The notes under the pieces are model-generated. The model saw only the letters and a program-made list of their open reading frames with translations, ran no database searches and had not been told where the DNA came from. This document shows positions 21,328-49,938 of a stretch of 64,000 bases of DNA, piece by piece (position 1 is the first letter of the stretch; each line of letters starts with the position of its first letter). This DNA comes from Arboricoccus pini (lineage in GTDB: Bacteria; Pseudomonadota; Alphaproteobacteria; Geminicoccales; Geminicoccaceae), in contig NZ_FYEH01000003.1 in assembly GCF_900187945.1 (NCBI RefSeq), positions 124,001-188,000 on the forward strand. Direction: 5' to 3'. The translations under genes were made by a program, and so were the position numbers.

Positions 21328-22890
21328 ATGGCCGGAAGGCCAAAGATCGAGATGGCTTATGCCACCGCCCGCGCCGTCGTAAGGGAGCCGATGTCCGACC
21401 GGTCCAGCGATCTTGTTGATCAGTGGCGCGACGTGCTGGCCGTCCTGCGGAGCGAATTTGGCGATGTGTCGTCGGGTATGCTGAAGCGGCTCGACGTTAT
21501 CGGCCAGGAAGGCGAACGCGTTCTCGTCGGCGTTCCGACGCACTTCATACGTGATTTCGTCGGCCGTCATTACGGCGACCGCATACGCTCGGCCTGGGCC
21601 GCCATAAATCCTGCGGTGCGATCGGTAACACTCCACGTTCGCCCGGATGTCGGCGCAGCAAGAAACGAAGCTCCGTCGCCGCCGCTTGGCGAAAGAGGCG
21701 CGCGACCCTCATTAGATGAACGCCGATCTACGGCGTTTGCTGCGAGCCCTACAGAACCGCCGGTCGATGAGGACTCATTCAGTCAAGGCTATGGCGTTCG
21801 GCCCGACGCCGGAATGCGGGAAGCGCCCACGACGCAGAGCGAGGTGGCCGAACTGCCGCTGGGCGACCTTTCGGGCCGCCTCGACCCTCGTTTTACATTT
21901 GAGCGCTTCATCGTCGGCAAGCCCAATGAGTTCGCGGTCGCCGCGGCCGAACGAGTCGCTTCCTCGCCCAAGCCGTCATTCAACCCGCTTTTCCTTCATG
22001 GCGGCGTTGGCCTCGGCAAGACTCATCTCATGCATGCGATCGCCTGGCGCGTACGCCAGCGCGACCCGCAGCGTAAGATCGTCTATCTGTCGGCAGAGAA
22101 GTTTATGTATCAGTTCGTTCGCGCGCTGCGCGAGCAGAACACCATCGGCTTCAAGGAGTTGTTCCGCTCCGTCGACATGCTAATGGTCGATGATGTGCAA
22201 TTCATCTCGGGCAAGGAAAGCACGCAAGAGGAATTTTTCCATACCTTCAATGCCCTCGTTGATCGCGGCAAGCAGATCGTGATTTCAGCTGATCGCAGCC
22301 CTTCCGATCTTTCGGGATTGGAAGAACGGATCCGTTCGCGGCTGTCCTGGGGCCTTGTTGCAGATATTCATCCCACCACCTACGAACTGCGCCTTGGGAT
22401 CCTGCAGTCCAAGGCCGAACAGATGCGGCTCGACGTACCGCTTCGGGTTATCGAGTTCCTGGCGCACCGGATCACCTCGAACGTCCGCGAGCTCGAAGGC
22501 GCGCTCAACCGGATCGTCCATCAGGCCAGCCTGACCGAGCGCGTGGTTTCGATCGAGATGGCCTCGGAGATCCTCAAGGATGTTCTGCGCGCTGCCGACC
22601 GCCGAGTAACAATCGACGAGATACAAAAATCGGTCGTCGACCATTATGGCCTGAAGCTGACCGACATGACCTCCAGCCGGCGAAGCCGCGCTGTGGCTCG
22701 GCCGCGTCAGGTGGCGATGTATCTCTCAAAATTGTTGACCCCGAGGTCGCTGCCAGAAATCGGCAAGAGATTCGGCGGCCGGGATCATACGACGGTCATG
22801 CACGCTGTTCGCCAGATCGAACGTCTGGTCGTCGAGGACAAGGCGCTAGCCGAGGACGTGGAACTGCTCAAGCGCCGGCTTCAGGCCTGA
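21328..22890 (+). CDS. dnaA: chromosomal replication initiator protein DnaA
   Basis: DnaA opens the replication origin. The 520-residue protein has domain I (about residues 25-105), a low-conservation linker (105-185), the AAA+ domain with Walker A GGVGLGKT at 225-232 and Walker B MLMVDD near 284-289, sensor and arginine-finger segments, and domain IV with the DnaA-box recognition signature GGRDHTTVMHAV. GAGGGGG lies five bases before the ATG. An internal ATG at residue 22 would give a start closer to some relatives. It begins the dnaA-dnaN-recF-gyrB run. Confidence 0.97.
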   Translation: MAGRPKIEMAYATARAVVREPMSDRSSDLVDQWRDVLAVLRSEFGDVSSGMLKRLDVIGQEGERVLVGVPTHFIRDFVGRHYGDRIRSAWAAINPAVRSVTLHVRPDVGAARNEAPSPPLGERGARPSLDERRSTAFAASPTEPPVDEDSFSQGYGVRPDAGMREAPTTQSEVAELPLGDLSGRLDPRFTFERFIVGKPNEFAVAAAERVASSPKPSFNPLFLHGGVGLGKTHLMHAIAWRVRQRDPQRKIVYLSAEKFMYQFVRALREQNTIGFKELFRSVDMLMVDDVQFISGKESTQEEFFHTFNALVDRGKQIVISADRSPSDLSGLEERIRSRLSWGLVADIHPTTYELRLGILQSKAEQMRLDVPLRVIEFLAHRITSNVRELEGALNRIVHQASLTERVVSIEMASEILKDVLRAADRRVTIDEIQKSVVDHYGLKLTDMTSSRRSRAVARPRQVAMYLSKLLTPRSLPEIGKRFGGRDHTTVMHAVRQIERLVVEDKALAEDVELLKRRLQA

Positions 22891-24143: not shown

Positions 24144-27762
<3,619 letters not shown>

Positions 27763-38624: not shown

Positions 38625-39233
38625 CTAGGTTGCGTTCCCTTCGCCATCCCGTCGGCGACGTAACATCACGTAGATCGCACCGTCGCCACCATGCCTCAGA
38701 CTGGCAGGGCTCGTCGCCAGGACAAGAGGCGCTATCGGCGGTTCATCGAGCCATCGGGGCGTCAGCGATCGAAGGACGCCCCCCGTCCGCAGGCCGACAC
38801 CGGTAATCACGAGCACGCAGCGCGCACCGAGCGAGCTCTGGCGCTGGATGAACTCAGTCAGAGCGGCATGTGCCCGCGCCTGGGTCATGCCATGCAAATC
38901 CAAACGGGCAGCGATCGGAAACTGGCCACGCTGCAATTTTTGTCGCGTACGTCGATCAAGAGTGATTGGAACGGCCCGCATCCGGGACTTCATCTTTGCC
39001 GGCGGGACTATAACGTGACCATTCGAATCGCTTGACTTGCTCCCTTCCACGCCGGGGGCAGTATTGTCATCCCCGCTGGGGAATGAACGTGAACCCGCGG
39101 TCTTCGATTTCATCTCGATAGGCTCGACATCCGCCATGACCCGATGCCAAAGCTCGATTTCGCTCACACTCACGGCTCGGCTCGAGACGCGGGGCACGGA
39201 TATATCTAACGAAGATGAGCGGCGACGGCTCAA
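38625..39233 (-). CDS. Smr/MutS2 C-terminal domain protein
   Basis: The 202-residue protein ends with an Smr domain: RLDLHGMTQARAHAALTEFI (DxH-type LDLHG motif), CVLVITGVGLRTGGVLRSLTPRWL and the closing GGDGAIYVMLRR. Smr domains are nicking or RNA-cleaving endonucleases. The N-terminal 100 residues are basic and of low complexity apart from ELWHRVMADVEPI, typical of the alphaproteobacterial group. Start TTG at 39233 overlaps the mltA stop (TTGA) and gives the family-like SRRR opening. smr-mltA-timA is a conserved alphaproteobacterial block. Confidence 0.88.
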   Translation of the reverse strand: MSRRRSSSLDISVPRVSSRAVSVSEIELWHRVMADVEPIEMKSKTAGSRSFPSGDDNTAPGVEGSKSSDSNGHVIVPPAKMKSRMRAVPITLDRRTRQKLQRGQFPIAARLDLHGMTQARAHAALTEFIQRQSSLGARCVLVITGVGLRTGGVLRSLTPRWLDEPPIAPLVLATSPASLRHGGDGAIYVMLRRRRDGEGNAT

Positions 39234-40447
39234 GAGGCCGACGACGCGGTAAGGTCGCCTCCCGATATTGGCGCGGGCAATCCTTTCGGCAGCAACAAAT
39301 ACCATTGCCCGGCCTCCTTCATCTGGCCAGCAATGTAGGCAGCGGCGGCACCGGAGCCCCAAAAGACGTCGCCGCGTACAGCGCCATGAATGGCGCCTCC
39401 GGTGTCCTGCGCAATCATCAATCGCTGCAACGGCCGTCGTCCTTCCGGGAAGGGGGCCATTGTGTCGATCCAGACCGGCATGCCATACGGTACCTCTTCG
39501 CGATCGACCGCCAACGAACGACCCGGCGTCAGGGGAACGCCCTGTGCGCCGAGTGGGCCCAGAGTGTCGTCAACCCGACCGAGTTCGCGGAAAAACACAT
39601 ACGACGGGTTCTTCGCCATCAAGGCATCCGCTTGATCCGGATGCTGATGCAACCAGTCGCGAATGCTCTGCATGGAGACCTGCTCACTTGTCAGCGCCCC
39701 CATCGCCACGAGATCTCTGCCGATGGCGCGATAAGGTCTGCCGTTTTGCGCCGCATAGCCCACACGGATCCTCGTTTCATCGGGCAGTCTGATCTGGCCA
39801 GATCCTTGAATCGCCATGAAGAAGGCATCTGTCGGATCATCAACCCAGACCAATTCCCGTGCCCGGCCCTGAAGCGATCCTTTAATGATCGCGGCGCGGT
39901 CGTCGTAAGGCACGAGCCGGCTGTCCTGGACCCGTCCCCAAAGCTGTCGTCCTCGCAGATCGTCGCTGAAATCGCCAAGCGAAACACTAATCAGGTCACT
40001 CGGCTTCTCATAAAGGGGAGTAGCGTAGCGCTGATCGGGCTGGCGGGCACCATTGAGAAGAGGTTCATAATAACCGGTAAACAGGCCCTCGGCCTGGGCA
40101 GGCTTCACTTTATACGCATCGAAACCAGTCTCGAAAAATCGCTTGGGATTCTCACTAGCGGCGGTTGTCAGCGACGCGGCGCAAACCTTGTTCCAAGCGC
40201 CTGACAGGGAACCGGATTCATGGGGCGCCGCCGTCCCCTGCCCGCCCAAGCGCTTCATCATGACGCCGCACGAACGCTGGAACGCGCCCAACGCATCGCC
40301 TTGACGATCGGCATCCCAGCCGGGCAGCGACGTTACATTTACGGACTCATAGCTCACTACCGGCGGTGAGCTTTCGTCGCGGCCGCAACTGGCGGCGAGT
40401 AACAACAGTAGGATCAGGGACGCTCGAAGGGTTCGCCAACTCGTCAT
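39230..40447 (-). CDS. mltA: membrane-bound lytic murein transglycosylase A
   Basis: MltA cleaves glycan strands with 1,6-anhydro end formation at the outer membrane. The 405-residue protein has a lipoprotein signal with LAASC (Cys21), the MltA domain with GLFTGYYEPLLNG and LVWVDDPTDAFFMAIQGSG, and the C-terminal 3D domain with AQDTGGAIHGAVRGDVFWG where the catalytic Asp lies. It follows the Tim44-like gene by 12 bp and overlaps smr. Confidence 0.95.
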   Translation of the reverse strand: MTSWRTLRASLILLLLLAASCGRDESSPPVVSYESVNVTSLPGWDADRQGDALGAFQRSCGVMMKRLGGQGTAAPHESGSLSGAWNKVCAASLTTAASENPKRFFETGFDAYKVKPAQAEGLFTGYYEPLLNGARQPDQRYATPLYEKPSDLISVSLGDFSDDLRGRQLWGRVQDSRLVPYDDRAAIIKGSLQGRARELVWVDDPTDAFFMAIQGSGQIRLPDETRIRVGYAAQNGRPYRAIGRDLVAMGALTSEQVSMQSIRDWLHQHPDQADALMAKNPSYVFFRELGRVDDTLGPLGAQGVPLTPGRSLAVDREEVPYGMPVWIDTMAPFPEGRRPLQRLMIAQDTGGAIHGAVRGDVFWGSGAAAAYIAGQMKEAGQWYLLLPKGLPAPISGGDLTASSAS

Positions 40448-40459
40448 TGATGCGAATCT

Positions 40460-41092
40460 TCAAACGTGGGGCGAGCGAGTCTCGGCTAGCCGCCAATTTG
40501 GATCCGTCGAACGCGTGTCGCGCACGAAGGTCCAAACATCGATGACTGGCTCGTCAGCCGGCGGATGGACCTGATCGGTAGCGCCGGGGTCCGTCTGACG
40601 GCTGGTGAACTGCACGGTGACCCGTGCGAGCGACCCATCCAGCCGCATACCGACAATCTTGGCATCGTCGATCGACAACAAGGTCGCGCCGTGCGTTTCA
40701 CCGACAGCCTCGCGGGCATCGATCGCCTGAGCAAAACTCTCAAGGACGTCACGCTCCACGAGGCCCTCAAGCGAAGCGCGATCTCCTCTGCCAAACGCAT
40801 CCAGGATCAATCCGAAGGCCGCCCGTGCGCCATCCAGAAAGGCCGCGGGGTCGAATTGGGGGTCTGCCGCACGGAGCTCTTGAAGCCCCGGCAATCCGGA
40901 TGCCCCAGTCTCATCGACTGGGTCAACCGTTGGCGCCACAGGCGATGTGCTCTTGCTCGAACCCAAGGCAGGGGGCATACGACGACGCTCATTGCCGGTC
41001 TTGCGACCAAGGACGCTCCGCAGCTTGAAGGCAATGAACGCCGCAAGCATGGCGAAGAGAATGATATCGATATATGCAAAGCTATTAGACAT
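40460..41092 (-). CDS. Tim44/TimA family putative membrane-translocation adaptor
   Basis: The protein of about 210 residues has an N-terminal transmembrane segment (about residues 5-25, IDIILFAMLAAFIAF), a variable linker, and a C-terminal Tim44-like domain with DPAAFLDGARAAFGLILDAFGRGDRASLEGLV and VYVQFTS-like VTVQFTSRQ. Alphaproteobacterial TimA proteins resemble the mitochondrial Tim44 import component; their bacterial role is not settled. GGAG lies five bases before the ATG at 41092. It heads the timA-mltA-smr run and is divergent from a phosphatase gene. Confidence 0.88.
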   Translation of the reverse strand: MSNSFAYIDIILFAMLAAFIAFKLRSVLGRKTGNERRRMPPALGSSKSTSPVAPTVDPVDETGASGLPGLQELRAADPQFDPAAFLDGARAAFGLILDAFGRGDRASLEGLVERDVLESFAQAIDAREAVGETHGATLLSIDDAKIVGMRLDGSLARVTVQFTSRQTDPGATDQVHPPADEPVIDVWTFVRDTRSTDPNWRLAETRSPHV

Positions 41093-41285
41093 CATTCTCC
41101 ACCACTGGATCGAGCGTCAAAGCCGCCATACAGCCCGTCCCGGCGGGAAGGCCTCGCTTAAAGTCCGGTGCCAACGTGGACATTGCGCATCCCAGCCGGC
41201 CCGGCGGCCATGCCTTGCGGCTCGCATATAAGCAACCGCAGAGGATAATAAAAGCCGCGCGCCACCGTTCCCTCGGAGCCAATTC

Positions 41286-41831
41286 ATGCTTCTCATCCGT
41301 CATGCACAGTCGACTTGGAATCTGGTATTCGGTGCCAGCCGGATCGACGCAGCCCTGACCGACCCAGACCTGACGGAATCGGGTGGCATGGCTTGCACCG
41401 CCGCGGCAATGGACTTGAAGGACAAGGGATTGCGCAGGATCGTCTCCAGCCCCTACCAGCGCACCCTCAAGACGGCCTCGCATCTCGCCCAGATTCTCCA
41501 CCTGCCCATCGAGGTCGACGTCTCGGTACGGGAGAGATGTGCCTTTTCCTGCGACCAAGGGACACCGAGATCGGTTCTTCAATCCTTGTGGCCGCAACTT
41601 GAGTTCGGCGAATTGGAAGAGCGGTGGTGGGGACGAACCATCGAAAGCAATCCGAGCCTCAAACGTCGCGCCCAAGCGTTTCTCGATAGAGCCGCGCGAT
41701 GGGACGACCACGATCATGTTCTGGTCGTTACCCATTGGGGCTTCATCCGTTGCGTCACAGGGCTCGAAGTGGGAAACCTCGCCACAGCAAGCGTCGATCC
41801 GACCGTCTCAACCGTCGCCGCTCCCAACTGA
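41286..41831 (+). CDS. histidine phosphatase family protein
   Basis: The 181-residue protein has the phosphoglycerate-mutase fold: nucleophile motif LLIRHAQSTWN, SSPYQRTLKTA with the second arginine, the acid E in VSVRERC and the second histidine in VVTHWGF. It is shorter than typical mutases and the substrate is unknown. In many relatives fxsA occupies the place between timA and secB; here this gene does, 21 bp before secB. Confidence 0.88.
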   Translation: MLLIRHAQSTWNLVFGASRIDAALTDPDLTESGGMACTAAAMDLKDKGLRRIVSSPYQRTLKTASHLAQILHLPIEVDVSVRERCAFSCDQGTPRSVLQSLWPQLEFGELEERWWGRTIESNPSLKRRAQAFLDRAARWDDHDHVLVVTHWGFIRCVTGLEVGNLATASVDPTVSTVAAPN

Positions 41832-41852
41832 CGCTATCTTAAAGGTATCCCG

Positions 41853-42353
41853 ATGAGCGAAATGCCGCAGCAAGGCGCCGCCGCCGATCAGCAGAACGCC
41901 CCACGTCTTGCCGTCCTCACGCAATATATCAAGGATTTGTCGTTCGAGAACCCGCGCGCGCCACAGACGCTGGTTCAGGGCCAATCGCGTCCCGAAATCC
42001 AGATCGCCGTCGACGTGAACGTGAAGCAGATCGGCCAGGAACAATACGAGGTCGTGCTCGATCTCAAGCTCAACGCAAAGTCCGGTGACACAACCGTCTT
42101 CGTCATGGAATTGAGCTATGGCTCGCTCTTCAACATCGCCAACATTCCCGACGAAACGATGCAGGCTATTTTGTTAATCGAGTGCCCGCGGCTCATTTTC
42201 CCCTTTGCGCGACGCATCGTAGCCGACGTCACCCGCGATGGCGGCTTGCCGCCCTTGATGCTCGAGCCGATCGATTTCGTGGCTTTGTACCGCAACAGGC
42301 TGGAGCAGATGCAGGGCCAGACCGCCGGCGAACCGCCGGTTGGCCACGCCTGA
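41853..42353 (+). CDS. secB: protein-export chaperone SecB
   Basis: SecB keeps preproteins unfolded and hands them to SecA. The 166-residue protein has LAVLTQYIKDLSFENPRAP, VDVNVKQIGQEQYEVVLDLKL and the acidic SecA-binding patch, then LLIECPRLIFPFARRIVADVTRDGGLPPLMLEPIDF. Length and motifs are normal. It converges on the LOG-family gene with only two bases between stop codons. Confidence 0.97.
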   Translation: MSEMPQQGAAADQQNAPRLAVLTQYIKDLSFENPRAPQTLVQGQSRPEIQIAVDVNVKQIGQEQYEVVLDLKLNAKSGDTTVFVMELSYGSLFNIANIPDETMQAILLIECPRLIFPFARRIVADVTRDGGLPPLMLEPIDFVALYRNRLEQMQGQTAGEPPVGHA

Positions 42354-42360
42354 ATTCAGG
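42349..42360. repeat. 12-bp palindrome containing both convergent stop codons
   Basis: CCTGAATTCAGG is a perfect palindrome. It holds the secB TGA (42351-42353) and, on the other strand, the TGA of the LOG gene (42358-42356). It is too short and lacks a T run to be a normal terminator. Confidence 0.8.
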
Positions 42361-42973
42361 GCGCAGGCGCGGCCGGTTGGCCGGACGCGCCTTGTCGCAA
42401 GAGTGCGACGCAGGATTCGACATCGGAGGCGACCTGCCACAGTGATACGGCGTCCGGCGCAGCGAAATTCCGCCCGATCAGATCGTCAAAAGTTTGCAGC
42501 AGGCTCTGCCATATTCCGAGCGTATCCAAGATCATGATCGCACCTTCATGATAGCCCAACTGTTTGAGGGTGATGACCTCAAGCAGTTCATCCAATGTAC
42601 CAAAGCCGCCAGCGATCGTTACAAAGGCATCCGCAGCCGCAATCATCTTCTGCTTGCGCTCGAACATCGTGTCGGTGACGATCAGGCTGTCGATCTCAGG
42701 TTTGCCGACTTCACGCTCGAGGAGGCGGCGAGGAATAATGCCGGTAACATGGCCACCCGCCCGGAGCGCGGCCTCAGCCACAACGCCCATCAAGCCAACG
42801 TTTCCGCCGCCGTAGACGAGCCCCCAGCCATGAGTGGCGATGGCGCGCCCTAGCTCGCGCGCCACATTTTCATAGGCAGGATCATTGCCGAACCGGGAGC
42901 CACAAAAGACGCCAACGCTGAACCGGTGCTCAGATGCAGCCCGATTGGCCAGGGCTCCAGCCTCCAGCGTCAC
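42356..42973 (-). CDS. LOG family protein (TIGR00730-type Rossmann fold)
   Basis: The 205-residue protein has VGVFCGSRFGNDPAY, GLVYGGGNVGLMGVVAEAAL, FERKQKMIAAADAFVTIAGGFGTLDE. LOG enzymes act as cytokinin-activating phosphoribohydrolases or nucleotide 5'-monophosphate nucleosidases. The usual PGGxGTxxE motif reads AGGFGTLDE here, a Pro to Ala change, with the catalytic Arg and Glu kept. It overlaps ilvE by 4 bp (ATGA) and so is probably translated with it. The physiological substrate is unknown. Confidence 0.88.
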   Translation of the reverse strand: MTLEAGALANRAASEHRFSVGVFCGSRFGNDPAYENVARELGRAIATHGWGLVYGGGNVGLMGVVAEAALRAGGHVTGIIPRRLLEREVGKPEIDSLIVTDTMFERKQKMIAAADAFVTIAGGFGTLDELLEVITLKQLGYHEGAIMILDTLGIWQSLLQTFDDLIGRNFAAPDAVSLWQVASDVESCVALLRQGASGQPAAPAP

Positions 42974-43854
42974 TCTGCGGCCTGAACATCGGCATGAGTC
43001 CGCCGAGTTTCGGCCTGGTAGGCGTCCATCAAAAGACGCGTAATCGGACCGATGGGAAATGAAAGCTCATCGATCGCCCGAACCGGCGTCACTTCGGCCG
43101 CCGTGCCAGTGACGAAAATTTCCTGAGCGTCGCGCAATTCGTCCGGCTTGATGTGGCGCTCGACCACGTCAATGCCGTTACCCCGCGCCAGCTCGATGAC
43201 GGTCTGACGCGTGATGCCATTCAAAAAACAGTCCGGGATCGGCGTATGCAGCTTGCCGTTCATTCCGAGAAACAGGTTGGCCCCGGTTGTTTCCGCTACA
43301 TAGCCGCGATAGTCGAGCATCAAGGCGTCGCCAAAGCCCTTGGCTTCGGCGGCATGCTTGCTGATCGTGCAGATCATATAGAGACCCGCGGCTTTGGCAT
43401 GCACGGGCGCTGTCGTCGGCGCTGGCCGATCGAAGGCTGCACGAGTGAGTTTCAGGTCGCTGTAATAGGCCCCCCACTCCCAACTGGCGATGGCGAGATT
43501 GATGCGTGCCTTGTCGGCCGACACGCCCATCTGCTCCGAACCCCGCCAAGCAATCGGCCGCACGTAGCAGTCAGGCACGCCATTCCGGGCCACCACGTCG
43601 CGCGTCGCAGTGTTGATCTCATCGAGCGTATAGGGAATTTCGAAGCCGAGAATCCTGCCGCTGTTGATCAGACGTTGGCTGTGTTCTGTAAGCTTGAAGA
43701 TTTGCCCGCCATAGCAGCGCTCGCCCTCGAACACCGCCGAAGCATAATGCAGACCGTGCGAGAGCACGTGAAGCTTTGCGTCACGCCAGGGAATCAAGTC
43801 GCCGTTAAGCCAAATCCAACCGTCGCGATCATCATAGGGAACAAGCTGCGCCAT
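42970..43854 (-). CDS. ilvE: branched-chain amino acid aminotransferase
   Basis: IlvE transfers amino groups in the last step of Val, Leu and Ile synthesis. The protein of about 294 residues is of fold-type IV: HVLSHGLHYASAVFEGER, RPIAWRGSEQMGV, the PLP lysine near residue 154 in HAKAAGLY, YVAETTGANLF and GITRQTVIELA. The ATG at 43854 is preceded by AAGAGG at some distance; a TTG two codons earlier is also possible. It is divergent from a MarR gene, with a dyad over the putative promoter. Confidence 0.93.
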   Translation of the reverse strand: MAQLVPYDDRDGWIWLNGDLIPWRDAKLHVLSHGLHYASAVFEGERCYGGQIFKLTEHSQRLINSGRILGFEIPYTLDEINTATRDVVARNGVPDCYVRPIAWRGSEQMGVSADKARINLAIASWEWGAYYSDLKLTRAAFDRPAPTTAPVHAKAAGLYMICTISKHAAEAKGFGDALMLDYRGYVAETTGANLFLGMNGKLHTPIPDCFLNGITRQTVIELARGNGIDVVERHIKPDELRDAQEIFVTGTAAEVTPVRAIDELSFPIGPITRLLMDAYQAETRRTHADVQAAE

Positions 43855-43903
43855 GGCCAACCGGCCTCTTAAGACATTAAGTTGGTGTGAAAAAGACCAT
43901 TGC

Positions 43904-43934
43904 GAGGGGTATCATTGCCCCTCATAAGTGTCAA
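43904..43934 (-). promoter_or_regulatory. putative ilvE promoter with overlapping operator-like dyad
   Basis: On the minus strand TTGACA (43934-43929) is a perfect -35 match, but the -10 region at 17-bp spacing (TACCCC, 43911-43906) is poor. GAGGGG (43904-43909) and CCCCTC (43918-43923) form an inverted repeat with an 8-bp gap that covers the -10 and spacer. A repressor here, such as the divergent MarR protein, is plausible but unproved. Confidence 0.45.
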
Positions 43935-43981
43935 CGTAACTAGGAAAAGCGACGCACGATAGGTGGCGCCATCATGGGCCG

Positions 43982-44470
43982 ATGACGATCGCGATGCATG
44001 CTCTTAACCCCTTGTTTTTGCGCGACGAAGAGATCGAGCGGCATCTCGAGTTGCTGTTGCTGGTCGAGCGCGAAATCTTGGAGCTTGGACGTGAAGCATG
44101 TGCCAAGCTCGGACTCTCTGAGTCCAGTTTTCGTGCCCTTTATTTGATCCAGCGCCATCCCCAGACGACGATGGCCGAACTCGGGACCGTGCTCTGCATC
44201 AAGAAGCAATCGCTCTCTCGACATCTCCAAGAATTGTGCGAAGCGGGTTATCTCGTGCAGGAAGCAGGCAGTGTCGATCGTCGAAAACGCTATCTTCAGG
44301 TAACAAAAGAGGGAGCCGACGCGCTGTCGCAGGTGGCCGATATTCATAAGCGAGCCTTAAAGCGGGCGTTCATGGCAGCAGGCCCCGATGCCGTGGCCGG
44401 CTTCGATCGCGTATTGAACGCCTTGATTAGCCAGCAGACCCGACGTTTCGTCGGCAACAGGGCCGCCTGA
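43982..44470 (+). CDS. MarR family transcriptional regulator (PetP-like)
   Basis: The 162-residue protein starts near NPLFLRDEEIERHLELL and has a winged-helix core: SSFRALYLIQRHPQTTMAEL, then LCIKKQSLSRHLQELCEAGYLVQE and the wing SVDRRKRYLQVTKEG. Its place 13 bp before an OmpR-type regulator gene recalls petP-petR of Rhodobacter, where both are needed for growth; this link is by gene order and recognition only. The start could also be ATG 43994. It is divergent from ilvE. Confidence 0.85.
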   Translation: MTIAMHALNPLFLRDEEIERHLELLLLVEREILELGREACAKLGLSESSFRALYLIQRHPQTTMAELGTVLCIKKQSLSRHLQELCEAGYLVQEAGSVDRRKRYLQVTKEGADALSQVADIHKRALKRAFMAAGPDAVAGFDRVLNALISQQTRRFVGNRAA

Positions 44471-44483
44471 GGAAACATCGATC

Positions 44484-45170
44484 ATGGTTGCGACGCCGCA
44501 TATTCTCGTCGTCGACGACGATCCTCGTCTACTTGATCTGCTCCACCGTTATCTGCGCCAGAACAATTATCTGGTGACGACCGCGATAGACGCACGTCAG
44601 GCCCGGCTTCACATGCAGCACATGGCCTTCGACCTTATGGTGCTGGATGTCATGTTACCCGACCAGAACGGCATGCAGCTGACGAAGGAGCTACGCCGAA
44701 CAGACGACATCCCCATATTGCTGCTCACGGCCCGCGGCGAGGCCGAGGACCGGATTGCCGGCCTCGAAGTGGGCGCCGACGACTATCTGGTCAAACCCTT
44801 CGAGCCGCGCGAGCTTCTTTTGCGCATTGCCATGATCTTGCGGCGGCGCCAACCGACCCCCGAGACGAGTTACGTCACGTTCGGTCCATTTTCTTTTAAC
44901 CTCGCGACGCAGGAACTCACGAGCAATGGCGAGGCCATCTATCTTACCAGCGGCGAGGCGTCGCTGCTCAAACTGCTGGCAACCGAACCCGGCAAGTCGA
45001 TCAGCCGCGCTGAACTCAGTGCCCGGAGCAATTTCGCTGGCTCCGACCGTGCCATCGATGTTCAGATCGTTAGACTGCGCCGCAAACTTGAGGAAGATCC
45101 GCGTCAACCGCGCTACCTTCTGACAATGCGAGGTGAAGGTTATGTGTTGCGTGCAGCCAATGCGCCCTGA
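44484..45170 (+). CDS. OmpR-family response regulator (PetR-like)
   Basis: The 228-residue protein has a receiver domain with the acidic pair DDD at 11-13, phospho-acceptor Asp55 in LMVLDVMLPDQNG, Thr in LLLTARGE and Lys near 105 in YLVKPFEP, then a winged-helix output domain (about 130-225) with AIDVQIVRLRRKLEEDP and YLLTMRGEGYVL. It lies between the MarR gene and the histidine kinase gene and should be the kinase partner. The regulon cannot be inferred. Confidence 0.93.
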   Translation: MVATPHILVVDDDPRLLDLLHRYLRQNNYLVTTAIDARQARLHMQHMAFDLMVLDVMLPDQNGMQLTKELRRTDDIPILLLTARGEAEDRIAGLEVGADDYLVKPFEPRELLLRIAMILRRRQPTPETSYVTFGPFSFNLATQELTSNGEAIYLTSGEASLLKLLATEPGKSISRAELSARSNFAGSDRAIDVQIVRLRRKLEEDPRQPRYLLTMRGEGYVLRAANAP

Positions 45171-45257
45171 ACGACGCGTCCACGATGGACGACATACCCG
45201 GCCGCGCCTCTAATTCCGCTACGGGCGCGCAACGCTCGCTCACTCCGGGAACGCCGC

Positions 45258-46610
45258 ATGGACCCCGTTCGTCACTTTATCAACCGCACCGTCGTGCCGC
45301 GCTCGCTGTTCTGGCGGACTTTTCTGATCGTCGTTCTACCGCTCCTCATCCTGCAGGTAGTTCTGACCTACATATTCTACAATCGGGTTTGGGACACCGT
45401 GACCTTCTGGCTTGCCTCAGGTGTGGCCGGCGAAGTGGCGATGGTCGTCGACCTCCTGGAAGAGACTCACGATCCAAACGCTCGCGCACACATTCTCGAC
45501 CTGGTCCGAGAGCATGCGGATTTGAGGATGTCCTTCGAACTCGGCGCCAAACTCGACGAAGCCGGCGCCGCAGCTGGCATGGATCGCTCCTTCTTCACGC
45601 ATATCGATAATAAAATTCTTGAGGCATTCGACGAGACCCTCAAAAAGCCATTCCTACTCGACCTGCGATTCGATCAACCAAGTTCGGTTGCGGTCTACGT
45701 GCAAATCGACGACGGCGTACTTAGGGTCATAGCGCCGCGAAAACGCCTGACGAGCACGACGACAGGGATATTTCTCACCTGGATGACCGGCGCTTCAGTA
45801 GTGCTCATGGTCGTCGCCATCTACTTCATGCGTTTGCAGATCCGCCCGATACGACTTTTAGCCAAGGCCATGGAAAGCCTTGGCAAAGGTCGCGATATTG
45901 GCGAGTTCAAGCCACGGGGAGCCGTGGAGATCCGCCAAGCGGCGCGCGCCTTCAACCTCATGCGTTTTCGCATCCTTCGTCACATCACCCAGCGCATGGA
46001 CATGCTGGCGGCTGTCAGTCACGATCTACGAACTCCCTTAACCCGGATGCGTCTTGAACTTGAGATGATGGGTAAGGACGACGAGCCTATTTTGGCCGGG
46101 CTTCGCGCCGACGTCGACGAGATGAGCACGCTTGTTGAGACCTATCTCTCCTTTGCTCGCGGCGAGGGACGTGAGGCCATGGAACCCACGCCCATAGGAC
46201 CGATCCTCGAAGGCATGCGCGAGCGAGCAGAACGAGCCGGCGTTGCCGTCGAGCTGTCGCCCTCACCGCCTATGACAGTGCCTCTCAGGCCCATTGCTTT
46301 TCGGCGATGCCTGGCCAATCTGGTCGATAATGCCTGCCGTCATGGGCGGCACATTGGCATAAGCGCAGCGCGCGTCGGCAATTATGTCGAAATTCAGATC
46401 GAGGATGATGGCCCAGGCATCCCGCCAAGTCAGAGGGAAGCCGTCTTCCAGCCCTTTGTTCGCGTCGAAGCTTCACGCTCTCGCTTTACGGGCGGCGTTG
46501 GATTGGGACTGGCGATAGCGCGCGACGTCATTCTCAGCCATGGTGGCGAAATTCTCCTTGGAGACTCCGCACGCGGAGGGCTCCGCGCCCTCGTGCGCGT
46601 GCCCGTCTGA
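45258..46610 (+). CDS. sensor histidine kinase, EnvZ type
   Basis: The 450-residue membrane kinase has transmembrane segments at about 20-40 and 168-190 enclosing a periplasmic domain of some 125 residues, a HAMP region (LQIRPIRLLAKAME), the H box with His255 in AVSHDLRTPLTRMRLELEMM, and an ATPase domain with NLVDNACRHG, DDGPGIPP and GVGLGLAIARDV. This is the EnvZ/PhoR-like architecture. It follows the response regulator by 87 bp and precedes maf by 26 bp. The sensed signal is unknown. Confidence 0.92.
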   Translation: MDPVRHFINRTVVPRSLFWRTFLIVVLPLLILQVVLTYIFYNRVWDTVTFWLASGVAGEVAMVVDLLEETHDPNARAHILDLVREHADLRMSFELGAKLDEAGAAAGMDRSFFTHIDNKILEAFDETLKKPFLLDLRFDQPSSVAVYVQIDDGVLRVIAPRKRLTSTTTGIFLTWMTGASVVLMVVAIYFMRLQIRPIRLLAKAMESLGKGRDIGEFKPRGAVEIRQAARAFNLMRFRILRHITQRMDMLAAVSHDLRTPLTRMRLELEMMGKDDEPILAGLRADVDEMSTLVETYLSFARGEGREAMEPTPIGPILEGMRERAERAGVAVELSPSPPMTVPLRPIAFRRCLANLVDNACRHGRHIGISAARVGNYVEIQIEDDGPGIPPSQREAVFQPFVRVEASRSRFTGGVGLGLAIARDVILSHGGEILLGDSARGGLRALVRVPV

Positions 46611-46636
46611 TTCCGATAGATCCTCCGATAGATTCA

Positions 46637-47251
46637 ATGTCAGCCGCCAATTCACCCCCTGTCATCCTCGCCTCGGGCAGCATCACGCGGGCAGCGCTTT
46701 TGCGCGCCGCTGGGATCGAACTCGCCGTTCAGCCGCCACTGGTCGACGAGGTGGCAGCGCGTGAGGCCCTGGCAGAGGAAGGCGCCAATGCCCGCGATGC
46801 CGCGACGGCGCTAGCCGAACTGAAGGCAGCCCAGGTCAGTCGGACAGCTCTCGGCGGATCGTTGGTCCTGGCCGCAGATCAGATCCTGGATGTCGGCGGC
46901 TCTTGGATAGGCAAGGCTAGTGATCGTTTTGAGGCGCGCCAGCATCTTCAATTGCTTCGAGGACGTGCGCATCAACTTTGGTCGGCCGCGGTGCTCTATC
47001 GCGATGGCACCCGCATATGGCACGCGGCCGAGGTCGCGACCCTGCACATGCGGGCATTCAGCAACGAATGGCTGGAAACCTATCTTGAGGCGGCGGGCGA
47101 TGCCATTTTGCAAAGTGTGGGCTGTTATCAGATCGAAGGGCTGGGAAGCCAGATGATGACTCGCATGGAGGGCTCCTACTTCGCCATCCTTGGACTACCA
47201 CTCCTGCCACTCCTCCAGGCTCTGCGTGACCATGATATCCTTGGCCGCTAG
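46637..47251 (+). CDS. maf: Maf family nucleotide pyrophosphatase
   Basis: Maf proteins hydrolyse non-canonical or pyrimidine nucleoside triphosphates. The 204-residue protein has ILASGSITRAALL (usual ASxSPRRxxLL, here with Ile-Thr for Pro-Arg), VDEVAAR, AADQILDVGG with the catalytic Asp and YQIEGLGSQM. Deviation in the first motif suggests the less typical Maf group found next to coaE in Alphaproteobacteria. Its stop abuts the coaE start; the aroE gene often located between them is missing. Confidence 0.87.
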   Translation: MSAANSPPVILASGSITRAALLRAAGIELAVQPPLVDEVAAREALAEEGANARDAATALAELKAAQVSRTALGGSLVLAADQILDVGGSWIGKASDRFEARQHLQLLRGRAHQLWSAAVLYRDGTRIWHAAEVATLHMRAFSNEWLETYLEAAGDAILQSVGCYQIEGLGSQMMTRMEGSYFAILGLPLLPLLQALRDHDILGR

Positions 47252-47254
47252 GTG

Positions 47255-47875
47255 ATGCTCGTCCTCGGGCTAACCGGCTCTCTGGCGATGGGAAAAAGTC
47301 GCACAGCTGCCATGTTCATGGCCCACGGCATCCCGGTCTTCGATAGCGATGCAACCGTGCATGGCCTTTACGCACCGGGGGGTGCCGCCGTCCTTCCGAT
47401 CCTCCGTTTGTTCGAGGATTGCGGCTCGGTCAGCGATGGGATCGACCGCGCAGCACTCGGCCGACGGATCCTGAGCGATGATACGGCAATGAGGGCGCTC
47501 GAACGCGTCGTCCATGCTCTTGTTCGTTCCAGCCAGCGCGCATTTCTTGAAACGCAGGCCAGGTTGGGACACTGGCTGACTGTCTTGGATATCCCGCTTC
47601 TCTATGAAAGCGGGGGCGATCGACGATGCGATCGAATCGTGGTGGTCAGCGCCTCTCCGTTCATTCAGAGCCAGCGCGCGCTCGCGAGGACCGGCATGAC
47701 CGCTCTCAGGCTTAAGTCGTTGCTCGAGCGGCAGACGCCCGATCTGCGCAAGCAATGTCTGGCCGACTTCGTGATCCACACTGGCGGCGATCGCGGGCGA
47801 CTCTCCAGGAACGTCGCGGAGATCTTAAGGAAGATGCGCCAGGTCCAGCCACATGCGTGGCCCAAACGCTGGTGA
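47255..47875 (+). CDS. coaE: dephospho-CoA kinase
   Basis: CoaE phosphorylates dephospho-CoA in the last step of coenzyme A synthesis. The 206-residue protein has the P-loop GLTGSLAMGKS at about residues 5-15, PVFDSDATVHGLY, the LDIPLLYESGGD segment and RMTALRLKSLLERQTPD-like TGMTALRLKSLLERQ. ATG at 47255 follows the maf stop by 3 bp; a GTG just before it would add one residue. With coaBC elsewhere in the window, two CoA genes are present. Confidence 0.94.
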   Translation: MLVLGLTGSLAMGKSRTAAMFMAHGIPVFDSDATVHGLYAPGGAAVLPILRLFEDCGSVSDGIDRAALGRRILSDDTAMRALERVVHALVRSSQRAFLETQARLGHWLTVLDIPLLYESGGDRRCDRIVVVSASPFIQSQRALARTGMTALRLKSLLERQTPDLRKQCLADFVIHTGGDRGRLSRNVAEILRKMRQVQPHAWPKRW

Positions 47876-47930
47876 AACGCCAGGCCGGACTATATGAAAA
47901 CGGCGTGTTCTTGAGGTCGAAAGGCGCAGA

Positions 47931-48611
47931 ATGATCCGCGAGATCGTCATGGATACCGAGACCACGGGTCTCGATCCCAACCAAGGGCATCGTCTGGTCG
48001 AATTGGGGGCTGTCGAACTGATCAATCACGTACCGACTGGCCGGACATTCCATCGCTACATCAATCCCGAGCGAGACATGCCCGAAGAGGCTCAGCGCAT
48101 TCACGGCCTCTCCGCGGAGTTCCTATCAGCCCATCCGGTCTTCGCGGCCAGCGAAGTAGTCGACGAATTCATCGCCTTCATCGCTGACAGCGCGCTGGTG
48201 ATTCACAATGCCGCCTTCGATATGCGCTTCATAAACGCCGAATTCGCTCGCTGCGGACGTCCGCTACTTCACCAAAGCCGCGCCATCGATACGCTGACGA
48301 TCGCCCAAAGGCGTTTCCCCGGTGCACCCAATAGCCTTGATGCGCTATGTCGACGCTTTGGCGTCGACAATAGCGCACGCACCAAGCATGGCGCCCTGCT
48401 CGACAGCGAGATCCTGGCCGAGGTTTATCTGCACCTGCTCGGCGGCCGCCAGGTGACCCTCGGCCTCATGACGCCCGACGTGCGGGCAAACGGGGGACGA
48501 ACCGTTGTCCGCAACAGGCACGAGCCCAGAATCTTCACGCCTTCAGTCGCCGAGCTAGAGGCCCACGAAGCCTTCATCGGCAAGCTCAAACACGCGATCT
48601 GGCTACAGTAG
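47931..48611 (+). CDS. dnaQ: DNA polymerase III subunit epsilon (proofreading exonuclease)
   Basis: The 226-residue protein is a DEDDh 3'-5' exonuclease: MDTETTGLDPNQGHRLVELGAV (first acidic pair at Asp8 and Glu10), HNAAFDMRFINAEF (third Asp), and KHGALLDSEILAEVYLHL (His and fourth Asp). The C-terminus binds the polymerase. It follows coaE by 55 bp, a conserved alphaproteobacterial order that usually continues to secB, which here lies about 6 kb away. Confidence 0.96.
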   Translation: MIREIVMDTETTGLDPNQGHRLVELGAVELINHVPTGRTFHRYINPERDMPEEAQRIHGLSAEFLSAHPVFAASEVVDEFIAFIADSALVIHNAAFDMRFINAEFARCGRPLLHQSRAIDTLTIAQRRFPGAPNSLDALCRRFGVDNSARTKHGALLDSEILAEVYLHLLGGRQVTLGLMTPDVRANGGRTVVRNRHEPRIFTPSVAELEAHEAFIGKLKHAIWLQ

Positions 48612-48720
48612 CACAGGCGCGTCGAGCGCTTGTGGCTTCACAACGTCGCATGCGCGCGGCTAAAACCCGGCCATCAGCGCTGCTTTGTCGCAGCTCTCTC
48701 TTTGCCCGCAGGAGCATCCC

Positions 48721-49938
48721 ATGGAGAAGATCACGGTCGCGAAGCCGATTGTCGAGATCGACGGCGACGAGATGACCCGGATCATCTGGCAGATGATCAA
48801 GGACAAGCTCATCCTCCCCTTCCTCGATGTTGATCTTCTTTATTTCGACCTCAGCATTGAGCATCGCGATGCCACCGACGACAAGGTAACGATCGAGGCG
48901 GCCGAGGCCATCAAGCTCCATAATGTCGGCGTGAAATGCGCGACGATCACGCCGGATGAAGCCCGGGTGAAGGAATTCGGGCTGAAAAAGATGTGGAGAT
49001 CCCCCAACGGGACGATCCGCAACATCCTGGGCGGCACCGTATTTCGCGAGCCGATCATCTGTAAGAATGTGCCACGCTTGGTGCCAGGTTGGACAAAGCC
49101 CATAGTCATCGGGCGCCATGCCTTCGGCGATCAATACCGGGCCACGGATTTCGTCGTGCCGGGAAAAGGCAAATTAACGATGCGCTTCGAGCCGGAAGAC
49201 GGCGGACCGGCCAAAGAATATGAAATCTTCAAATTCCCCAGCGCCGGCATCGCCATGGGCATGTACAACCTGGACGATAGCATCCGTGAGTTTGCCCGCG
49301 CATCATTCAACTACGGCCTTCTTCGGAGGTGGCCGGTCTACCTCTCGACCAAGAACACTATTCTCAAGGCTTATGACGGTCGATTCAAGGACCTGTTCCA
49401 GGAGGTCTTCGAGAGCGAGTTCAAGACCGAGTATGCAAAGCATAAGCTGACTTACGAACACCGTCTGATCGATGACATGGTGGCCTCGGCGCTTAAATGG
49501 TCAGGCGAATTTGTGTGGGCCTGCAAGAACTATGACGGCGACGTTCAATCGGACACGGTCGCCCAGGGCTTCGGCTCGCTCGGTTTGATGACATCAGTCC
49601 TGATGACACCCGATGGAAAGACCATCGAGGCCGAAGCGGCCCATGGCACCGTGACCAGGCATTATCGCGAACATCAAAAGGGCAAGGAGACATCGACCAA
49701 CCCGATCGCCTCCATCTATGCATGGACCCGCGGCCTGACGTACAGGGGCAAGATCGACGGCACACCAGAGGTGGAGAAATTTGCCCAGACGCTTGAGGAG
49801 GTGTGTGTCGCGACTGTCGAAGCAGGATACATGACCAAGGATCTTGCCATTCTCATCGGTCCGGACCAGCCATGGCTGACGACCACCCAGTTCCTCGACA
49901 AGCTGGAGCAGGGCCTCAAGGCTCGCTATAGCGCTTGA
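48721..49938 (+). CDS. icd: NADP-dependent isocitrate dehydrogenase
   Basis: Icd oxidatively decarboxylates isocitrate to 2-oxoglutarate in the TCA cycle. The 405-residue protein is of the eukaryotic-like homodimeric group: [68 protein letters not shown]-like [14 protein letters not shown] and the coenzyme region [23 protein letters not shown] lies before the ATG at 48721, so a longer in-frame start is rejected. Its stop overlaps a possible TTG start of the next gene. Confidence 0.97.

Follow-up and report, generated by a model that had tools for sequence, protein, structure and literature searches.

Two gene arrangements recurring in Alphaproteobacteria provide the closest comparison for the locus described here. 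The canonical block carries maf, aroE, coaE and dnaQ, with the secB-fxsA-timA-mltA-smr arm beyond them. At the outgroup loci fetched, outside the family of Arboricoccus pini (Geminicoccaceae), aroE stands between maf and coaE in 10 of 10, and secB lies beyond dnaQ in eight, the exceptions being G033, where the contig ends, and G035. These ten maf loci derive from 16 non-family genomes, of which G026, G028, G029, G031 and G034 gave weak hits and G036 none. The second arrangement is a module in which ilvE is accompanied by genes for a MarR-family regulator (marR), a response regulator (RR) and a sensor histidine kinase (HK). Of 20 outgroup ilvE loci representing 20 families (20 fetched from 40 matching genomes besides A. 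pini), 14 have the entire set, with wider intergenic gaps in L107, L111 and L119; the incomplete loci lack HK (L114, L125), lack a detectable marR (L116, L126) or carry marR only (L115, L123). None of the 20 has a maf match less than about 6 kb from ilvE. Among 80 loci of a named collection, the module also occurs in Rhodospirillales, Hyphomicrobiales, Caulobacterales, Rhodobacterales and Acetobacterales, not at every locus, and maf is matched beside it only in L167-L169, which probably correspond to the family genomes G023, G013 and G046. In one proteobacterial MAG (L240), about 5 kb separates a fxsA-timA-mltA-smr-hslUV arm from ilvE-marR-RR; both blocks can therefore be neighbours elsewhere too, perhaps in an intermediate arrangement. 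A literature search on aroE/coaE gene order, the ilvE module and PetP/PetR returned nothing of use.

The window, the whole 64,000-nucleotide stretch analysed (G000:C27:124001-188000), belongs to an A. pini genome of 4.07 Mb in 28 contigs with a completeness of 99.32%. Open reading frames together with Pfam and NCBIfam scans give the order smr-mltA-timA-histidine phosphatase-secB-LOG-ilvE-MarR-response regulator-kinase-maf-coaE-dnaQ-idh, and these hits support every gene named in the initial annotation, whose inventory lacked aroE and fxsA. The minus strand carries smr, encoding an Smr domain protein (38625..39362; PF01713, 1e-21), whose real start is probably inside the mltA overlap, followed by the lytic transglycosylase gene mltA (39230..40447; PF03562, 1.7e-62; PF06725, 2.9e-21) and the Tim44-like timA (40460..41095; PF04280, 4.7e-32). 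The plus strand then carries a branch 1 member of the histidine phosphatase superfamily (41286..41831; PF00300, 5e-24) and secB (41853..42353; PF02556, 1.7e-53), the sole secB match in the genome. A LOG-family gene (42356..42973, minus; TIGR00730, 4.2e-52, above cut-off) and the branched-chain amino acid aminotransferase gene ilvE (42970..43860, minus; NF005726, 1.1e-141, above cut-off) come next. From ilvE diverge, in this order and on the plus strand, the MarR-family regulator (43982..44470; PF12802, 1.7e-12), an OmpR-like response regulator (44484..45170; PF00072, PF00486; best NCBIfam model OmpR, under its cut-off) and an EnvZ-like sensor histidine kinase (45258..46610; PF00512, PF02518, PF00672; best NCBIfam model EnvZ, under its cut-off).

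Downstream, the maf-like nucleotide pyrophosphatase gene (46637..47251; NF002690, 1.9e-52, and TIGR00172, 7.9e-29, both under cut-off), the dephospho-CoA kinase gene coaE (47252..47875; TIGR00152, 3.2e-27, above cut-off) and dnaQ, for DNA polymerase III epsilon (47931..48611; TIGR01406, 5.4e-83, above cut-off), are collinear on the plus strand, and the NADP-dependent isocitrate dehydrogenase gene idh (48685..49938, plus; NF006156, 3.8e-227, above cut-off) follows. The gap between secB and maf (42353 to 46637) measures 4.3 kb, not the approximately 5.6 kb first given. The label origin-proximal holds in the sense of dnaA-proximal, with dnaA (21328-22890) and gyrB (25333-27762) both inside the window; it is otherwise unsupported, and the best-scoring mnmG-type match is found on a separate contig (C8). 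The genes of the block are expected to keep their usual functions, and we infer that no functional change accompanies the new order.

The initial annotation rightly judged this order unlike the usual alphaproteobacterial one; its picture of a broken-up block peculiar to this genome, with ilvE and a regulatory set inserted, is largely contradicted by the comparison within the family. That comparison covers 31 family genomes, A. pini being the only one of its genus; 28 have maf at E <= 1e-22, each contributing its maf locus, and G040, G041 and G042 have no maf match at this cut-off. The module lies directly upstream of maf in 18 of the 28 (G000, which is A. pini, and G002, G004, G005, G007, G009, G011, G012, G013, G016, G017, G018, G020, G023, G043, G044, G045 and G046). 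It is inverted within 7 kb of maf in G003, and is not at maf in nine (G001, G006, G008, G010, G014, G015, G019, G021, G022); the sequence analysed for G001 and G019 reaches just some 2.2 kb upstream of maf, and the kinase expected in that interval is absent. Twelve of the 28 loci additionally carry mltA, timA and secB on the far side of ilvE (G000, G002, G004, G005, G007, G011, G016, G017, G023, G043, G044, G045). Across all 31 genomes, 18 have secB no more than 2.5 kb from ilvE, including G001, G010, G019 and G022, in which maf is on another contig; in G012, G013 and G018 the module is at maf, and secB is located over 20 kb off or on a different contig. The order is thus common in the family, being that of most loci, and it is not universal. 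Two local features accompany these loci: about 950 bases without an aroE match separate maf and coaE in G046 (L129), and one in-frame TGA within the ilvE match of G016 (G016:C55:150270-151151) may mark a shorter protein end or an error.

The closest counterpart is G011, which shares the order mltA-timA-phosphatase-secB-LOG-ilvE-marR-RR-HK-maf-coaE-dnaQ with A. pini and differs in retaining fxsA between timA and the phosphatase gene and in an additional 1.5 kb or so between dnaQ and idh. At the other extreme, aroE stands at maf in three of the 28 family loci, those of G002, G003 and G004. In a five-protein tree, 11 rows of which are less than half filled, these three genomes form a clade (99/96) that branches off first within the family, and the remaining 25 are united with support of 97/92.

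The gene fxsA is absent from the block, as first reported, and is also undetected in the rest of the A. pini genome, where 18 candidates scored with PF04186 (FxsA) include none at E <= 0.001; the same search detects fxsA in 21 of the 31 family genomes. Only about 190 bases separate timA from the phosphatase gene, too few to hold fxsA. Wherever both genes are detected in the family (19 of 19 genomes), fxsA lies less than 1 kb from secB. The proposal that the phosphatase substitutes for fxsA is rejected, since relatives have both genes: the two occur together in G017, G011, G002 and G004, and in family relatives the phosphatase gene lies between fxsA and secB. Moreover, fxsA is undetected in all six genomes of genus g6 and in G007, and no match is found in the fragmented assemblies of G020 and G022. 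G011, the closest relative of A. pini on the tree, retains fxsA, and the loss in A. pini is therefore separate from those in genus g6 and G007. It is a later loss, in the A. pini lineage.

The second missing gene has left no remnant between maf and coaE, because the TAG of maf runs straight into GTGATG; coaE directly follows maf, occupying the place held by aroE in the basal family members, and the description of the two genes as abutting is accurate. The expectation that shikimate dehydrogenase is encoded elsewhere is also borne out. A PF08501 search of the genome identifies two places, on C12 and C5. The C12 gene (128424-129284, minus strand) is complete, encodes 286 aa, and exceeds the cut-offs of both AroE equivalogs (NF001312, 333.4 bits vs 295; TIGR00507, 223.4 vs 200.2); among solved structures, it is matched best by a shikimate 5-dehydrogenase. 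This intact aroE at another locus is the predicted canonical shikimate dehydrogenase gene of A. pini. Together with the shared order, which holds for most family loci and not for all, it supplies both observations that the initial annotation had named as refuting its reading. The C5 gene is AroE-like and exceeds the cut-off of PRK12550 (445 bits vs 306), which we take to be the group of HI0607; it lies at L067 7713-8564 (G000:C5:131712-132563) and adjoins ABC transporter genes, and one neighbour resembles lumazine synthase by eye.

Phylogenetic analysis places 17 displaced aroE copies, that of A. pini included, in a single clade (100/96 and 100/97) in the two trees built without paralogs and long-branched rows; the rows left out, a choice made once the first tree had been seen, comprise G031, G033 and G035 in addition to the paralogs, and the aroE of G042 is in no tree. 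In the first tree, built with six paralogs and the long rows, the displaced copies are not monophyletic: their distribution takes 3 changes, and 6% of 200 bootstrap trees recover them as one clade. Two long-branched paralogs fall among them there. The best 31 aroE matches outside A. pini among 160 genomes of the phylum all come from the same class, and maf lies within about 1 kb of aroE in nine of the 11 of these that were fetched. Around the displaced copies, a NUDIX gene near the aroE of L066 is matched in eight of the 16 loci compared, within 0.5 kb of aroE in six, at about 2 kb in L132 and at about 3.3 kb in L143; apart from this gene, the neighbourhoods show differences from that of L066. 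Because aroE is found at maf only in the basal clade of G002, G003 and G004, a single departure from the maf-coaE junction is the simplest account. The displaced copy is most simply read as the old gene, moved by descent.

A usual-strength AroE match, defined as 82 bits (the weakest displaced copy scores 82.8 and the next match 76.9), is present in 21 of the 31 family genomes, at maf in three and elsewhere in 18. The remaining ten (G001, G005, G007, G009, G010, G019, G022, G041, G044, G045) have none, and G007 and G022 have no AroE match at all; absent data may explain some of these cases in fragmented genomes. In G009, G010 and G019, which constitute the next family branch, no canonical aroE match occurs either at maf or at a displaced site, and the move can therefore be dated only loosely. 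G005 (L147), a single contig that is 99% complete, has as its only PF08501 match a protein of which a 250-residue piece passes PRK12549 (393 bits vs 235) and narrowly misses the cut-off of the AroE equivalog NF001319 (244.8 vs 252). The only PF08501 match of G044 (L149) passes both PRK12549 (434 vs 235) and NF001319 (275 vs 252), and the only PF08501 match of G045 (L151) is a more distant relative, the model scan having covered G005 and G044 of these three. The G005 and G044 proteins could well be functional shikimate dehydrogenases belonging to another branch. In addition, the AroE-like copies of G010 (L153), G009 (L156) and G001 (L161) pass no NCBIfam cut-off. Tentatively, and with less than even confidence, the shikimate dehydrogenase step might have turned over after aroE left the maf operon, with displaced AroE in some members, only the PRK12549-type protein in G005, G044 and probably G045, and only below-cut-off AroE-like proteins in G001, G009 and G010; this would be serial paralog replacement of an essential enzyme within one family.

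Taken as a whole, the A. pini block is very probably a lineage-specific but ordinary gene order that was built up stepwise. The starting arrangement would have been maf-aroE-coaE-dnaQ, followed on the opposite strand by secB and fxsA and then by timA-mltA-smr. In the family stem, the secB...smr arm would have moved to the other side of maf and flipped, the ready-made module, with ilvE diverging from marR-RR-HK, would have come to lie between this arm and maf, and the histidine phosphatase gene would have arrived between fxsA and secB. After G002, G003 and G004 had split off, aroE would have left the maf-coaE junction, its canonical copy coming to lie elsewhere (C12 in A. pini), and fxsA would have been lost later in A. 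pini. We infer a route of either two inversions or one transposition for the rearrangement.

A recent break-up confined to A. pini, in which a foreign ilvE and regulatory cassette was inserted, aroE was lost and the phosphatase replaced fxsA, would agree with the departure from the common alphaproteobacterial order and with the absence of an fxsA that the close relative G011 retains. It is nevertheless highly improbable, given that the same module occupies the same place at most family maf loci, is complete in 14 of the 20 other families, and that phosphatase and fxsA coexist in relatives; foreign insertion of the ilvE set is rejected, the module being old and shared. Assembly gaps are an equally improbable explanation of the two missing genes: the genome is indeed divided into contigs, but the sequence runs unbroken across the maf-coaE junction and between timA and the phosphatase gene and leaves no space there for aroE or fxsA, aroE is present on C12, and completeness is high. 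Acquisition of the displaced aroE from another alphaproteobacterium, which would have made the maf-linked copy dispensable, deserves more weight, although it is still the unlikely course. In no aroE tree, including those without paralogs, do the displaced copies group with the maf-linked ones of G002, G003 and G004, and the AroE-like paralogs of several family members make turnover plausible. Against it, placing all family copies in one group is not rejected (AU p 0.127 in the paralog tree, 0.353 and 0.339 in the trees without paralogs), and the deep forks of the latter lack resolution.

Under the stepwise history, then, the A. pini block reflects ordinary genome reshuffling, and its order is real and was correctly described. 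An order compared with those of distant orders can seem broken though it is usual in its own family. Additionally, aroE appears to have departed from a conserved operon a single time, an event that may have made AroE replaceable by paralogs in some members.

Compared with the canonical alphaproteobacterial block, the A. pini locus retains the same genes, the order and strand of maf-coaE-dnaQ, and the grouping of mltA, timA and secB. It differs in the position of the secB-smr arm, which stands across maf and is separated from it by the ilvE module, in the absence of aroE and fxsA from the block, and in the added phosphatase gene; whereas canonical secB lies beyond dnaQ on the opposite strand, that of A. 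pini lies on the maf side and on the same strand as maf. Compared with the ilvE/marR-RR-HK module of Alphaproteobacteria, A. pini has the same four genes with ilvE diverging, and its particularity resides in the flanks, the HK end abutting maf and LOG and secB lying beyond ilvE.
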